Position numbers and translations under genes: made by a program. From an uncultured Lachnospiraceae bacterium (lineage in GTDB: Bacteria > Bacillota > Clostridia > Lachnospirales > Lachnospiraceae), in the NCBI GenBank assembly GCA_947177445.1, contig CAMWUL010000001.1:62001-126000 (forward strand): a stretch of 64,000 bases of DNA. Reading direction: 5' to 3'. A model generated the notes under the pieces. It had not been told where the DNA came from and did not search any database. It saw nothing but the letters and a program-made list of their open reading frames with translations. Positions 55,994-63,624 of the stretch are shown here, piece by piece. Positions within the stretch are counted from its first letter, which is position 1; each line of letters opens with the position of its first letter.

Positions 55994-56347
55994 ATGAGCA
56001 ATGTTTCCACGGAACAGAAGCTGCGGCTGGTACAGCAGGTTCGAAGCAGATACAGCGAAGATCAGCTTGACCTGACAAACAGGGAACGGATCCTCTATGG
56101 CAGGAGCAGCTTTCGAAGTGCGGAGGGACCCTGGGCGGAGCAATATCCGTATCCTGAGGATGCGCCAAGGCCCTCCTTGTTCAAAATCAGGCTTTTACTG
56201 GCCCTTGTGCTCTTTGGTGCCGTGATCGCCATGGATACCAGCGGAATCAATGTGGCAGGGATCACGGCAGAAACGATTTTTGAGGCTATTTCTGTTGATT
56301 ATGAGGACACCATCGATCAGTGGATCGATGCGGCAGGCGGCTTATAG
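55994..56347 (+). CDS. Small single-TM hypothetical protein
   Basis: 117-aa ORF with RBS-like ggaggt upstream and one hydrophobic segment LFKIRLLLALVLFGAVIAM. Confidence 0.65.
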   Translation: MSNVSTEQKLRLVQQVRSRYSEDQLDLTNRERILYGRSSFRSAEGPWAEQYPYPEDAPRPSLFKIRLLLALVLFGAVIAMDTSGINVAGITAETIFEAISVDYEDTIDQWIDAAGGL

Positions 56348-59300
56348 CTCTCCCATTAGAAAGCGGCAGGCGTTCATCAGGGTGTCAGGGGTCTTCCCTG
56401 CAATGAAATAGAAATCCAGCTGTTCCTCTCCTTCCGTATGAAGGTAAGTGCCGTAGGAAGGAAGGTCACAGCTGATGACCGGATTTTCTGAGGCTGTTAA
56501 AATGCCGAAGCCCTGGTCGGAGAACAAAAAGGGAAGCCCATCCTCATGGGAAATATACCGTGCCGTCTGGCGCAGAGGAAGCATCTGTTGATCTTTAGGT
56601 CCCAGGGCAAAAACCTGTTCCTTTTTTACATATTCCAAAAAGAGCCAATATTGTGATCCTCCTTTCGGGAAAGCTTCCGCCTGCCTGCATTCCCGTTTCC
56701 GCTCTGCCAGCAATGGCTTTTTGTCTCTGGTCAGGTAGCGTATGGCGCCTGTATTTTTTTCCGCCTGAAGGATCAGCTCTTCTGTGGAAAGCGTGACCAT
56801 ACCGCCGGTATCCTGATAGGTCCAGAAACGCTCAAGCCGGCGGGTCCGGATCCGCGGATGAGTGATATCCAGAATTTTGCCTCCCTTGGCAAAGGTCACC
56901 CGGATGATTCCGCTCCCGATAGGGCTTAGGCGCAGGACGCCGTACCGGCTCTGCAGGTACAGGCCGTCCGCCTGCTTTATGACCCAGCGCACAGAAAGAT
57001 CTGCTTTTGCGTGCCCTAACGGACGCAGCTTTTCTGTGGGGGGAAGATCGCCAAAGCGGGGAATATCCTGAGAAGCATTTTGACGCTTAACAGGAGCAGA
57101 TGCCTGACCGGAAAGCCTCCGGGGAATCTGCGGGGAACCGGAAGAAATGGCTTCTGGAGCGGCACTCCGCCGTGGATCTGGAGCGGCGGCAATCGCAGTC
57201 TTGGCGTCCTGCCGTGGACCAGCGGCAGTAATCGTGGGTCTGACTTTTTCCCGGGTGCCTGGCTGCGCTGCGGCTGATCGAACGCCTGGCCGGTTCTTTG
57301 CGGAGGCAATGGACAGTCTGGGAGAGGCCGGCGCGGACTCGGCAGAAGGCAGAGGAAGCTTAAGAGCAGGCTTTTTATTTTCCGGTACCGGGTCCGCGAT
57401 CAGACCGGTAAGGTTCCCTGTATGAAGCACACACAATTCATGCAGCGCCCGGGTTGCCGCTACATAGAGCAGGCGTGCATGCCCGTCGTCCACAGGATAC
57501 TCCTCCCGGGAGGGATCCAGGATTAATACCGCGTCAAATTCCAGACCCTTTGTGTATTCCACGGGAAGCACCATGATGCCGCTTCCAAATTCTGTTTTTT
57601 CCAGATCCTCCTCCAGAGTTTCCGGGCTGTTCTTCAGGGTGATGTGTTTTTCAAGCGCTTCTGCCGCCTGAAGCGCACTGTCCCGGCTGCGGCAGACTAC
57701 CGCTATGGTAGGAAGGCTCCTCTCCTGCCAGTCCCGGCAGATTTCGGCAGCCCTGGCCCAGAGCGCTTCGGATTGGGAGGATACCAGCTTCACAGGGCTT
57801 CCGTGACGTATGATGGGCTCCACCGGATAGGTGACAAAGTCTCCATGATGCAAAATATTTGTGGCAAAGTCAGAGATTTCCACCGTATTGCGGTAGCTCT
57901 TTTTCAAAATGCCAAAGCTGTCCATTTCATCTGCCAGAAACAGTGCTTTCAGCGCTTCCCAGTCGTTCAGTCCAACACCGAAGCGAATATTCTGGGACAC
58001 GTCACCCATGATGGTATAGGTGCATCCGGTGACACAGAAATGCAGACAATCATAAACCATCATTCCAAAATCCTGGGCTTCGTCTATAACCATGTGATGC
58101 GCTTCGCTGATCACCTCGGTCTCCTTTGTTCTTTTGTAGATATAGGCCAGTGCCGCCAGGTCGTAGACATCAAATTCGTCTCCCGGAGGATCCACCGGAT
58201 ATCCTTCGTCTGCCTGCCTTCGCAGAAAGGTATCATACAGGACATAGGTAGACTGCTTCCAGATATTGCTTCCGTATCTGTTTCGGTAAGCCTTTAAAAT
58301 GGCTTTTTTTTCGGCATCCGTATATTTTATCCCTTTCCCGGAAAATTCGTCTTTGACCTTTATGTGCAGGCGCTCGTTCAGCATATTGATTTTACTCTGA
58401 ATAGAAATTTTGGGATTTTGCATCACATACCGCCGGACAGCCTGTCCGTCTGCCAGCAGTATCAGCTTCTCCGGGTCCGTTTCCTGTCCGTTTGTCTGGT
58501 CAAATACGCCTGTCTGTCCGTTCTGAATGCCTTCCACAAACTGGCGGGGATTCAGATAGATGGATTCCATGAAAATCGTGCGCTGCTCCAGGTCGTCGCA
58601 AAAACGCTTTAAAGCCTGGAACCATGTGCCGCTTCCCTTAATCCGTCCGGCTGCTTCCTGATCCGCTTTTCGGATCCGGTATTTTTTTGGATCCCAGTCC
58701 TCATAAAGCAGACGGACAAAAAGCTGTTCCATGGTCATCTGCCGGACACCGTACACGTCCAGATCCGGAAGCACGCCGGTGATATAGTTCAGCAGGATCC
58801 GGTTGCTTCCCACGATATAAAAGTCCTCCGGGCGAAAGCGGTCCGGGTAATTGTACAGAATATAGGAGATCCGGTGCATGGCCACCGTGGTTTTTCCGGA
58901 ACCGGCTACTCCCTGGACAATCACATTATGATAGGGAGACCTGCGGATGATCTCATTCTGTTCCTTCTGAATCGTGGCCACGATCTCTCCCAGCACCGCC
59001 TGTTTGCTGCGCGCCAGATACTTGGTCAGCAGATCGTCGTTGGAAATCACTTCACTGTCAAAATAGTCCAGCAGCTTTCCCTGCTCGATCTCATAAGTGC
59101 GTTTCAGCTGCAGATCGATATTCAGCGGTTTGCCGTCCGGGGCCGGATAACTGCACTGGCCCAGACCGTTTTCATAATAGGCGTTGGCCACCGGCGCACG
59201 CCAGTCTATGACTGTCTGATGAGTTGTGTCCCTGGAGATGCCTCCCCTGCCGATATAGAGCGATTCATCCTTGTCCAGGGCCTCATCGTGGAAGCAGATC

Positions 59301-59575
59301 CTTCCGAAATAAGGCTTGTTCTGCGCCTTTTCATTTCGTTCCAATGCTCTTTTCATATGGTCGTGCAAGGTGATGGTGTTGGTCAGAATCGTGTACACCT
59401 CGGCGTCATTATCGTGATAATGCTCCAGCATTTCATCGATATCAGCCTTCATTTCCCGAACCTGTCGGCCAAAGCTTTCCATGTTGGCATGGATTACAGC
59501 AAGTGTCTCTTTCAGGTGCTTCTCCTCGTCCTGGCGGGAGGTTCCCTGAACGTGCTTTTCCTTCTCCGGTTTCAT
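56342..59575 (-). CDS. HelD-type UvrD/SF1 helicase with a C-terminal GH31 N-terminal-domain-like extension
   Basis: VIDWRAPVANAYYE, NVIVQGVAGSGKTTVAMHRISYILYNYPDRFRPEDFYIVGSNRILLNYI (HelD); C-terminal SRYGVLRLSPIGSGIIRVTFAKGGK...YWLFLEYVKKEQVFALGPKDQQMLPLRQTARYISHEDGLPFLFSDQGFGILTASENPVISCDLPS...LDFYFIAGKTPDTLMNACRFLMG. Confidence 0.88.
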   Translation of the reverse strand: MKPEKEKHVQGTSRQDEEKHLKETLAVIHANMESFGRQVREMKADIDEMLEHYHDNDAEVYTILTNTITLHDHMKRALERNEKAQNKPYFGRICFHDEALDKDESLYIGRGGISRDTTHQTVIDWRAPVANAYYENGLGQCSYPAPDGKPLNIDLQLKRTYEIEQGKLLDYFDSEVISNDDLLTKYLARSKQAVLGEIVATIQKEQNEIIRRSPYHNVIVQGVAGSGKTTVAMHRISYILYNYPDRFRPEDFYIVGSNRILLNYITGVLPDLDVYGVRQMTMEQLFVRLLYEDWDPKKYRIRKADQEAAGRIKGSGTWFQALKRFCDDLEQRTIFMESIYLNPRQFVEGIQNGQTGVFDQTNGQETDPEKLILLADGQAVRRYVMQNPKISIQSKINMLNERLHIKVKDEFSGKGIKYTDAEKKAILKAYRNRYGSNIWKQSTYVLYDTFLRRQADEGYPVDPPGDEFDVYDLAALAYIYKRTKETEVISEAHHMVIDEAQDFGMMVYDCLHFCVTGCTYTIMGDVSQNIRFGVGLNDWEALKALFLADEMDSFGILKKSYRNTVEISDFATNILHHGDFVTYPVEPIIRHGSPVKLVSSQSEALWARAAEICRDWQERSLPTIAVVCRSRDSALQAAEALEKHITLKNSPETLEEDLEKTEFGSGIMVLPVEYTKGLEFDAVLILDPSREEYPVDDGHARLLYVAATRALHELCVLHTGNLTGLIADPVPENKKPALKLPLPSAESAPASPRLSIASAKNRPGVRSAAAQPGTREKVRPTITAAGPRQDAKTAIAAAPDPRRSAAPEAISSGSPQIPRRLSGQASAPVKRQNASQDIPRFGDLPPTEKLRPLGHAKADLSVRWVIKQADGLYLQSRYGVLRLSPIGSGIIRVTFAKGGKILDITHPRIRTRRLERFWTYQDTGGMVTLSTEELILQAEKNTGAIRYLTRDKKPLLAERKRECRQAEAFPKGGSQYWLFLEYVKKEQVFALGPKDQQMLPLRQTARYISHEDGLPFLFSDQGFGILTASENPVISCDLPSYGTYLHTEGEEQLDFYFIAGKTPDTLMNACRFLMGEL

Positions 59576-59751: not shown

Positions 59752-61038
59752 CTATCGATCTGCCAGTTCTCTGGTAACTTCCTCCCAGCTGATGTCCTTT
59801 TCCGCCATAAGAACCATCATATGATATAGAAAGTCGCTGATCTCATATTTTACTTCATTTGCACCGGGATTTTTGGCGGCAATCACAATTTCCGTGGCCT
59901 CCTCTCCCAGCTTTTTCAGTATCTTGTCAAGTCCCTTGTCAAAGAGATAATTGGTATAGGATCCCTCCTTAGGGTGCTGCTTCCGGTCTCTGATCACATC
60001 CAGCACCTGGGAAAACACCTGCAGAGGATTATCGGTTTCCTCATAATCCTTTTTCGTGATTTCGTGGAAGAAACAGCTCCTTTCACCTGTGTGGCAGGCC
60101 GCGCCGATCTGGGATACCTTCGCCAGGATCGTATCCATATCGCAGTCGGCCGTAAGACCTTTCACATATTGGAAATGGCCGCTGGTGGCGCCCTTTTGCC
60201 AAAGCTCGTTCCGGCTTCGGCTGTAGTAGGTCATTCTGCCGGTGAGAAGCGTCTGCTCATAGGCCTCTTCATTCATATAGGCCACCATCAAAACCTCCCG
60301 GGTCCGATAGTCCTGTACCACCACAGGCACCAGCCCGTCGTTGTTTTTCTTAAAATCCTGCCACCCATATGCGGCCTCAAGGGTTTCCACCATAATCCCG
60401 TTTTCCCTGCACAGATTCTTCAGTGCCAGAATATCCCGGCAGTTGTCGTTGATGGTATTTCCCGTGACTCCGCACACATGCTCGTGGGCAAATATTTCCA
60501 TAAGCTTGTTCAGGGCAATCTGATTGATCTGAACATAAAAGGGCAGACCGGTTGCGCTTTCCGTTTCCCTGATCTGATGAGGATTCATCAGAAGCAGGCA
60601 GGAAACGTATTGATCCAGAAGCTCCCGGTTTTCGTCCAGCACCCCGGGATCGTTGTAGGAGGCCAGAATCCGGTTCCTGCCAAACTTCAGGGATACGGTT
60701 TCGGTCAGGGCAATATTGCTCTCCTTCTCATAGTCCAGTACGGCCCGCCTGCAGCCTGCGTACAGCAGTTTTTTTACGTCCTCCATACGTTGTATGTTTC
60801 CGGCGCCCGTCACATCCATCTGTGCCATGGCGCAGATTTCCTTCAAAAGATCCAGCGCAGCTTCATGCTCTTCGTCCCCCTGGGACATATCAAATACGAT
60901 CAGTTCATCCACATTGTTTTCATTGTAGAGCTGCACCAGGCGCAGCGGGTCCGTTTCCACCACGCTGGTATCCGAAAGGCCCTTTACCGCATGGCCCCGG
61001 TATAAATAAATGCAGGATACGAATTTTTTTACTATCAT
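59752..61038 (-). CDS. hisI: HisIE (PR-AMP cyclohydrolase / PR-ATP pyrophosphatase) with N-terminal HisA/HisF-like domain
   Basis: [58 protein letters not shown]-term [16 protein letters not shown]...[14 protein letters not shown]-term [49 protein letters not shown]. Confidence 0.93.
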
Positions 61039-61064
61039 ATGTAAACTCCCTTGCGTTTTTGCCT

Positions 61065-61658
61065 TTAAAGACTTCCTTTGGTGCTCAATACATCCTTGAT
61101 CCGGGGGTCGAAGCCGGAAGCCGTATCCAAAGCTTTGGCAAAGGCCTTGAACATGGCTTCTATCATATGGTGGGTATTGATGCCGTCCAGCAGACGGAGG
61201 TGCAGGTTCATCGCCGCGTTGCAGGATACCCCGTAGAAAAACTCCCGTACCAGCTCTGTATCCAGATCTCCCACCCTTCCGGACGGGAAGGAACAGTCAA
61301 AATTCAGCCAGGGTCTTCCGCCCAGATCCACAGCGCACAGTACCAGCGCATCGTCCATGGGAAGAATCGCAGAGCCATATCTGCGTATTCCCCTCTTATC
61401 TCCCAGGGCCTGAGACAACGCCTGGCCAATTACGATGCCTGTATCCTCCACCGTGTGGTGTCCGTCCACATGCAGATCCCCCTCCGCGCGGCAGCATAAA
61501 TCAAAAAGACCATGTCTGGCAAAGCCCTCAAGCATGTGATCAAAAAATCCGATGCCGGTGGAAATATCCGCCGCCCCGGAACCGTCCAGATTCAGGGTGA
61601 CGGCTATATGAGTTTCCCGGGTGCTTCGTTCCACCGATGCAATTCTCTTTTCTTCCAT
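61065..61658 (-). CDS. hisB: Imidazoleglycerol-phosphate dehydratase
   Basis: [41 protein letters not shown]...[17 protein letters not shown]. Confidence 0.97.
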
Positions 61659-61666
61659 GAATTAAT

Positions 61667-62965
61667 TTACCTCTCTCCCTCAAAGCGAATCCGAATGCTG
61701 TCCGCGTGGGCAGTCAGCCCTTCGCTTTCGGCAAAAAGCTCGATATCCCGGTGCACCTTTTCCAGCGCCTCTCTGGAGTAGGAAATAATGCTTGTTTTCT
61801 TTATAAAATCATCTACGCTCAGCGGTGAAAAAAACCTGGCCGTGCCGTTGGTGGGCAGAATGTGATTGGGGCCCGCAAAGTAATCGCCCAGCGGCTCCGA
61901 AGCGTAAGGTCCCATAAATATGGCGCCGGCGTTTCTGATCCGGGTCATGACCTCAAAGGGATTGGCCGTAAGAATCTCCAGGTGCTCGGAAGCGATCTCG
62001 TTTACCGTATCCACGGCATCCTCCATGCTTTCCGCCAGCAGAATGTATCCGTAGCGCTTCAGGGATTCTTCAATGATGGCCTTTCTGGGCTGCTGTGCGG
62101 TAAACTGGTCCACCCGGCAAGAAACCTCCTCGGCGAGTTTTTCGGAGGTGGTAATCAGGATGGCGCTGGCCAGCTCGTCGTGCTCCGCCTGAGACAACAG
62201 ATCTGCCGCCACATACCCGGGATCCGCCGTATGGTCGGCCAGCACCAGGATTTCGCTGGGACCGGCAATGGAATCGATGCTCACATACCCATAGACGGCT
62301 TTTTTGGCCAATGCCACAAAAATATTTCCCGGACCTGTGATCTTATCCACCCTGGGAATCGACTCCGTGCCAAAGGCCAGGGCCGCAACGGCCTGGGCTC
62401 CGCCTGCCCGATAGATCCTGTCTGCTCCCGCCAGGTCTGCCGCCACAAGGGTTCCGGGATTGATTTTTCCGTCGGCTCCGGGAGGCGTGACCATGATCAG
62501 CTCCCTTACGCCTGCCACTTTTGCGGGAATGGCGTTCATCAGCACACTGGAAGGGTATGCGGCTTTTCCGCCCGGCACATAGATGCCTGCCCGTGCGATG
62601 GGGGTGATCTTTATTCCCAGAATGGAGCCGTCCTCCTTGGTATCGAACCAGCTGTTCCGAAGCTGTTTTTGATGAAAATGTTTGATATTCTCCGCCGATT
62701 CCCGGATCACCCGGACAAGCTCCGGATCCATACTGTCATAGGCTTCCCGAATCTCCTGGTCTGTAACCCGGATATTTTGAGCATTCAGCTCAAACCGGTC
62801 AAATTTTTTCGTGTATTCAAACAGCGCACTATCCCCGTTTGCTTTAATGTTTTCTATAATTTCCCGGACTGTGGCTTCATATTGGGAATAATGGCCGGGA
62901 CTTCTCTGCAGAAGGTCATTCATTATGAGGCGCCTGGTCTCCCCGGTAAGCTTTACGATTCTCAT
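61667..62965 (-). CDS. hisD: Histidinol dehydrogenase
   Basis: AGIYVPGGKAAYPSSVLMNAIPAKVAGV...SIAGPSEILVLAD...LSQAEHDELASAILIT...GPNHILPTNGTARF. Confidence 0.97.
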   Translation of the reverse strand: MRIVKLTGETRRLIMNDLLQRSPGHYSQYEATVREIIENIKANGDSALFEYTKKFDRFELNAQNIRVTDQEIREAYDSMDPELVRVIRESAENIKHFHQKQLRNSWFDTKEDGSILGIKITPIARAGIYVPGGKAAYPSSVLMNAIPAKVAGVRELIMVTPPGADGKINPGTLVAADLAGADRIYRAGGAQAVAALAFGTESIPRVDKITGPGNIFVALAKKAVYGYVSIDSIAGPSEILVLADHTADPGYVAADLLSQAEHDELASAILITTSEKLAEEVSCRVDQFTAQQPRKAIIEESLKRYGYILLAESMEDAVDTVNEIASEHLEILTANPFEVMTRIRNAGAIFMGPYASEPLGDYFAGPNHILPTNGTARFFSPLSVDDFIKKTSIISYSREALEKVHRDIELFAESEGLTAHADSIRIRFEGER

Positions 62966-63624
62966 TGCTGTTCTCCTCCTTCCAGTCGGCTGCGGATCTG
63001 TTCCGCCAGCTTTTTAATACGTGCGACCTCCATCTGCATGCTTACGGGATTGACGATCATTCTGGCAGACAGAGGACATATTTCCTCCAATACCTGCAGC
63101 CCGTTTTCCTGCAGAGTGGACCCGGTCTCCACGATATCCACAATCACGTCCGACAGCTCCACCAAAGGCCCCAGCTCCACGGAGCCGTTCAGTTTTATGA
63201 TGTCCACTGTCTGGCATTTTTTGTCATGAAAGTAATCTCTTGCAATATTGGGGTATTTGCTTGCCACCCGGATCCTCTCGCGATGGCGTAAAAGCTCTTT
63301 TGCAGATTCCGGGCCGCAGACACACATTCTGCACTTTCCGAAGCCCAGATCCAGCACCTCGTGGACATTCCGATTTTCCTCCAGAATGGTATCCCTTCCC
63401 ACAACCCCGATATCTGCCGCCCCATACTCCACATAGGTGGGAACGTCGGGTCCCTTGGCCAGGAAAAAACGCATTTTCAGGGACTCGTTTACGAAAATCA
63501 GACGCCGGGACTTCTTATCCTTCATCTCCTCGCATCCAATCCCTATCTGCTCAAAAAGCTCCAGGGTTTTGTCGGCCAGACGTCCTTTTGCCAGCGCAAG
63601 GGTCAGATAACGCTCTTCACTCAT
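62962..63624 (-). CDS. hisG: ATP phosphoribosyltransferase
   Basis: LTLALAKGRLADKTLELFEQIGI...GAADIGVVGRDTILE...IVDIVETGSTLQENGL. Confidence 0.97.
   Translation of the reverse strand: MSEERYLTLALAKGRLADKTLELFEQIGIGCEEMKDKKSRRLIFVNESLKMRFFLAKGPDVPTYVEYGAADIGVVGRDTILEENRNVHEVLDLGFGKCRMCVCGPESAKELLRHRERIRVASKYPNIARDYFHDKKCQTVDIIKLNGSVELGPLVELSDVIVDIVETGSTLQENGLQVLEEICPLSARMIVNPVSMQMEVARIKKLAEQIRSRLEGGEQQ

Follow-up and report, generated by a model that had tools for sequence, protein, structure and literature searches.

The window analysed here, a stretch of 64,000 nucleotides from contig CAMWUL010000001.1 of an uncultured Lachnospiraceae bacterium, carries on its minus strand a continuous open reading frame (59575..56342, with an ATG start) for a fused HelD protein of 1077 aa. 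The assignment of this fused helD gene (56342..59575) draws on the ORF and its translation, a HelD match, a structure model and intact fused orthologues. Upstream of it, positions 59752-63624 of the same strand hold genes that by sequence belong to histidine biosynthesis (hisI/E-like, hisB, hisD and hisG), and at its other end a plus-strand ORF of 117 aa (55994-56347), likely including a membrane segment, runs convergently with helD, the last 6 bases of which it overlaps. In 18 of the compared loci a relative of this small ORF was found nearby, nearly always in the same convergent place. The his genes and a MoxR/DUF58 cluster flank fused helD in a subset of relatives only, and across the loci compared no operon partner is conserved throughout the fused clade and no carbohydrate genes stand out beside the fused gene.

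Architecture of the fused protein

HelD is an RNA-polymerase-recycling motor, which frees stalled RNA polymerase from DNA. Structural work has described how it opens RNA polymerase by driving two arms into its channels (PMC7749167). In the protein examined here, the motor occupies residues 1-735 (57371..59575, minus strand). The NCBIfam model HelD_BACSU (NF041464) matches it with E=4e-94 and 316 bits, short of the model's equivalog cut-off of 419 bits; the motor is a member of the HelD family, but the model does not call it an equivalog of B. subtilis HelD. A phmmer comparison with 6wvk_H, which is HelD in its complex with B. subtilis RNA polymerase, gave E=2e-65, and the top seven Foldseek matches of the whole predicted chain are all HelD chains. 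The order of the motor, named by analogy with PMC7749167, is an N-terminal secondary-channel arm (in the predicted structure two long helices, residues 14-52 and 58-84), the ATPase halves, a clamp-arm insertion and a head, and the likeness to HelD in sequence and fold extends across its whole length, arm insertions included. The SF1 ATPase motifs are intact and conserved through the HelD alignment, comprising a Walker A sequence GVAGSGKTT that is nearly invariant among aligned HelDs (residues 222-230; 58886..58912), an invariant Walker B or motif II sequence DEAQD (residues 498-502; 58070..58084) and the motif VI region VAATRALH (residues 705-712; 57440..57463), all on the minus strand. As such, sequence and fold together point to a putative RNA polymerase recycling HelD. 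Its best family and fold match is the B. subtilis type (class I; PDB 6wvk, 6zca), with which it has the arms and the intact ATPase motifs in common, although B. subtilis HelD (774 aa) possesses neither the linker nor the GH31 N-terminal domain of the fused protein. The class II proteins of Actinobacteria (HelD_MYCSM, HelR) belong to the same RNA-polymerase-recycling superfamily, but the HelD_MYCSM model scores this motor lower (128 bits, against a cut-off of 1051).

The motor is followed by a disordered linker rich in Ala, Pro, Ser and Arg (residues 736-840; 57056..57370, minus strand), recognisable by its low pLDDT and varying in both sequence and length between species. Next come the motif FGDLPPTEKLRPLGH (FGxxPxxxxLxPxGH; residues 841-855, 57011..57055, minus strand), present in fused proteins only and absent from GH31 (98 fused proteins compared with 33 GH31 domains), and a beta-sandwich of the GH31 N-terminal, galactose-mutarotase-like type (residues 856-1077; 56345..57010, minus strand), which has no catalytic barrel and is identified by homology and fold matches. 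With the window's C-terminal domain alone, Pfam Gal_mutarotas_2 (PF13802) remained sub-threshold at 19.5 against 27 bits; 18 of 34 relatives of the domain match the same model at E<=0.01, and a profile built from the 34 finds solved GH31 enzymes, the best being BoGH31A at E=5e-15. Furthermore, a true GH31 enzyme of 839 aa encoded in the same genome matches the domain with E=3e-13. AlphaFold, supplied with the relatives, modelled the domain at pLDDT 93.4 and pTM 0.91, and among the Foldseek matches of this model the best 50 listed are all GH31-type glycosidases, including MeXyl31 (5zn6; E=4e-11, TMq 0.72), YicI and FjDex31A. Homology and predicted fold thus both indicate a GH31 N-terminal beta-sandwich. 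However, the 1077 residues contain no catalytic (beta/alpha)8 barrel with a nucleophile Asp, so that the protein does not qualify as a GH31 glycosidase; the chain ends just short of the point at which the barrel begins in the GH31 enzyme of the same genome (LLPRWAYGY). The relationship to the GH31 N-terminal domains (PF13802; BoGH31A, YicI, MeXyl31 5zn6) is therefore one of fold, detectable homology and the same junction at the chain end, from which the fused domain departs in being barrel-less and basic, in the loss of the N-loop-side motifs and of the TxDG insert, and in the new FGxxPxxxxLxPxGH.

The whole-chain AlphaFold model folds both motor and domain, with residues 737-835 below pLDDT 50 and an overall pTM of 0.66, and its Foldseek matches run from HelD chains (6wvk_H, 1e-37) through UvrD/PcrA-type helicases to GH31. 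The analysis confirms that the ORF joins a HelD motor (9-735), a basic linker predicted to be disordered (737-835) and, at 841-1077, a beta-sandwich of the GH31 N-terminal type. The initial annotation, made from the sequence alone, had read the residues up to about 750 as a HelD-like helicase, followed by a long low-complexity linker and some 220 residues of GH31 N-terminal sandwich, and this division was borne out by the NCBIfam and 6wvk_H matches, the predicted disorder and the modelled fold, as was its remark that no barrel follows. The structure prediction it had proposed for the C-terminus did recover the GH31 N-terminal fold, and the search it had proposed for orthologues with the same C-terminal extension returned 103 intact fused ORFs, only three loci being disrupted in or beside the linker. 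Its suggestion of a repurposed domain showing no decay likewise holds, given a continuous ORF here and a single continuous ORF in related genomes.

The HelD class survey (PMC8655204), in the part of its text consulted, describes proteins of about 670-870 aa, and a text search of the survey found no C-terminal extension and no mention of glyco- terms. Searches of the open-access literature found no relevant paper joining HelD with galactose mutarotase, or Gal_mutarotas_2 with a helicase, and for HelD together with Lachnospiraceae the same survey (PMC8655204) was the only relevant paper; none of the open-access papers searched reported a HelD that has captured the N-terminal domain of a GH31 enzyme.

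Distribution and origin of the fusion

The fusion is present in 20 of the 37 genomes of the window's genus that were searched (in one of these, G036, the motor is on a different contig from the domain); in nine others the sole HelD is a shorter one that belongs to a different branch. Among 397 evenly sampled Lachnospiraceae genomes, 67 have a HelD match at E<=1e-60, and the fusion occurs in about 33 genomes from 26 genera, a count that excludes matches in GH31-sized ORFs and includes two cases cut by contig ends. A class-wide sample of 391 genomes yielded no fusion beyond the window's own gene, the remaining matches lying in GH31-sized ORFs of roughly 400-860 aa; matches on plasmids proved to be haloarchaeal TIM-barrel proteins. 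Tail length past the motor separates the 132 non-redundant HelD ORFs into 103 with at least 314 aa, 24 with at most 17 aa and five in between, and of these five, three are interrupted by a stop or frameshift within the linker or adjacent to it and two sit at a contig or locus end. All 103 intact fused ORFs come from Lachnospiraceae or from loosely labelled gut MAGs, in a collection that was seeded with eight closer rows and is consequently biased towards the Acetatifactor-like branch; Acetatifactor muris DSM 23669 (L094) itself carries a fused helD. One genome (G418, contigs C47 and C21) encodes both an unfused HelD-type ORF (732 aa) and a fused one (1023 aa), so the two forms can coexist. A divergent fused helD also lies beside ABC-transporter genes in GenBank MT836747.1 (L237, 982-4215), a human faecal entry named 'Bacteriophage sp.' that looks like bacterial sequence mislabelled as phage.

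A tree of the motor only places all 63 sampled fused proteins in a single clade (SH-aLRT 98), which contains no unfused row and to which unfused Lachnospiraceae HelDs are sister lines; this tree was quick and has some long branches, and it and the domain tree are midpoint-rooted. The domain tree likewise sets one fused clade against GH31 with support of 100/99. The unfused sister lines share at most about 62% identity with the fused motor over a matched part and extend no more than 17 aa beyond the motif VI region, with neither linker nor sandwich. A single gain in Lachnospiraceae, with no loss seen, fits both trees; several fusions or repeated losses are needed on neither for the sampled rows.

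The same evidence disposes of the possibility, effectively refuted in our judgement, that annotation or assembly merely joined two genes by an indel: in L077, L102 and L135, the three loci noted above, a stop or frameshift does interrupt the fused gene at the linker or close to it, the domain frame continuing intact downstream, but 103 non-redundant intact orthologous ORFs, one of them in the Acetatifactor muris DSM 23669 genome, a single clade of fused proteins and the selection that acts on the domain as read in the fused frame all stand against it.

Selection and sequence change in the captured domain

Among 22 close pairs, omega (estimated by the Nei-Gojobori method, some pairs having few changes) is mostly 0.02-0.3 for the domain, near that of the motor, and 0.16-0.95 for the linker, where it exceeds the values of motor and domain in nearly all pairs. 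Linker length ranges from 86 to 270 aa in the 98 fused proteins, with a median of 128. These data show a domain under purifying selection and a linker that is a drifting tether between two constrained domains.

Residues were compared between 98 fused domains and 33 GH31 N-terminal domains. The motifs GLGQxEEG and QxN, conserved in 88-100% of the GH31 set, are mostly lost from the fused one, and a stretch of about 33 residues containing TxDG is lost from it entirely. In GH31 enzymes the N-loop forms part of the active-site pocket, as with Asp303 at the +1 subsite of glucosidase II (PMC4742823), and the alignment suggests that GLGQxEEG and QxN likely belong to this loop. Since the motifs that adjoin the active site in GH31 are lost, the hint of sugar binding in the initial annotation finds no support. 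The fused domains have in turn gained FGxxPxxxxLxPxGH, of which G854 and H855 occur in 98 of 98 fused domains and in none of the 33 from GH31, together with W864, A1005, S1009, C1036 and P1039. The new FGxxPxxxxLxPxGH segment may lie over the face that is occupied by the barrel in GH31 enzymes. Basic positions were gained as well, namely R863 (99 versus 6%), K984 (98 versus 9%) and R1006 (87 versus 15%). The fused domains are basic overall (median pI 8.9, net charge +5), whereas GH31 N-terminal domains are acidic (about 5.3; 16 of the 17 measured have a pI of 4.6-6.7 and one of 8.6, with 15 below 6), and the motors of the fused proteins are themselves acidic (pI about 5.5). This shift in charge may represent one event on one branch, and would then count as one observation rather than 98.

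Possible roles of the tethered sandwich

The retained sandwich probably does a new job in the descendant genes. At a little less than an even chance, we tentatively favour exaptation of the domain as a tether gripping RNA polymerase or nucleic acid over a role as a sugar sensor. A Lachnospiraceae HelD acquired the N-terminal sandwich of a GH31 glycosidase once; the sandwich ends where the catalytic barrel would follow and is attached to the C-terminus of the motor through a long disordered linker. The data above show this architecture, its single origin, its retention and the selection on it, whereas the function proposed next is inferred. The motor would use the known HelD mechanism, in which both arms enter RNA polymerase and open it, and the basic sandwich, on a leash of approximately 100-270 residues, may bind RNA polymerase or nearby DNA or RNA, which could strengthen the hold of HelD on stalled complexes or retain the released material. 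We thus envisage a sandwich that no longer handles sugar and acts as a tethered docking module, a preference based on the basic domain, its gained basic positions, the lost GH31 motifs, the single retained clade and the purifying selection. In B. subtilis the delta subunit acts with HelD (PMC8655204), and no match to delta was found in any of the 37 genomes searched, two control genomes being positive. The helper of HelD known from B. subtilis is thus missing, leaving room for another; however, unfused genomes lack delta just as fused ones do, and replacement of delta as the specific cause of the fusion is not supported. Two further points weigh against docking onto RNA polymerase or nucleic acid, namely that relatives with an unfused HelD do without the domain and that the altered charge could instead help the domain to dock onto the acidic motor.

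Such self-docking is a serious rival, if in our estimate an unlikely one. The basic sandwich would fold onto the acidic motor and form a lid, autoinhibitory or stabilising, that comes off on RNA polymerase; the opposed pI values (about 5.5 for the motor, about 8.9 for the domain), the long flexible linker and the co-inheritance of both parts on one clade would allow this. A linker so long and so variable (86-270 aa) is nevertheless unnecessary for an intramolecular lid, and, judged by its pTM of 0.66, the whole-chain model does not indicate one rigid body.

We regard as improbable a sensor role in which the sandwich would bind a sugar or a sugar phosphate and adjust HelD to the supply of carbon. 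The fold does derive from a carbohydrate enzyme, and true GH31 enzymes of that kind are also encoded by the gut bacteria that host the fusion; but the active-site-side motifs, likely forming the N-loop, have been lost and no conserved carbohydrate gene lies near fused helD, which make this role less likely, and in GH31 the sandwich supplies few contacts, most of the pocket being made by the barrel that is absent here (PMC4742823). A reading in which RNA-polymerase recycling is gated by a carbohydrate metabolite that the sandwich still binds seems about as improbable; if true, it would couple sugar status directly to the turnover of transcription complexes in gut Lachnospiraceae. Equally hard to credit is a neutral passenger or mere stabiliser, harmless or an aid to folding: unfused HelDs do exist within the family, but no loss is seen on the sampled fused clade, purifying selection on the domain is near that on the motor, and new invariant residues such as G854, H855 and C1036 have arisen.

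For annotation, the case is a warning that a GH31-type domain match in a helicase does not denote an enzyme. HelD, whose arms are structurally well described, here receives an additional tethered module that can be neatly deleted, which makes its effect on recycling directly measurable. More broadly, the fusion shows cleanly how a transcription factor has recruited the accessory domain of an enzyme, by one gain in one bacterial family, after which the domain was retained, lost its old active-site-side motifs and had its charge reversed.
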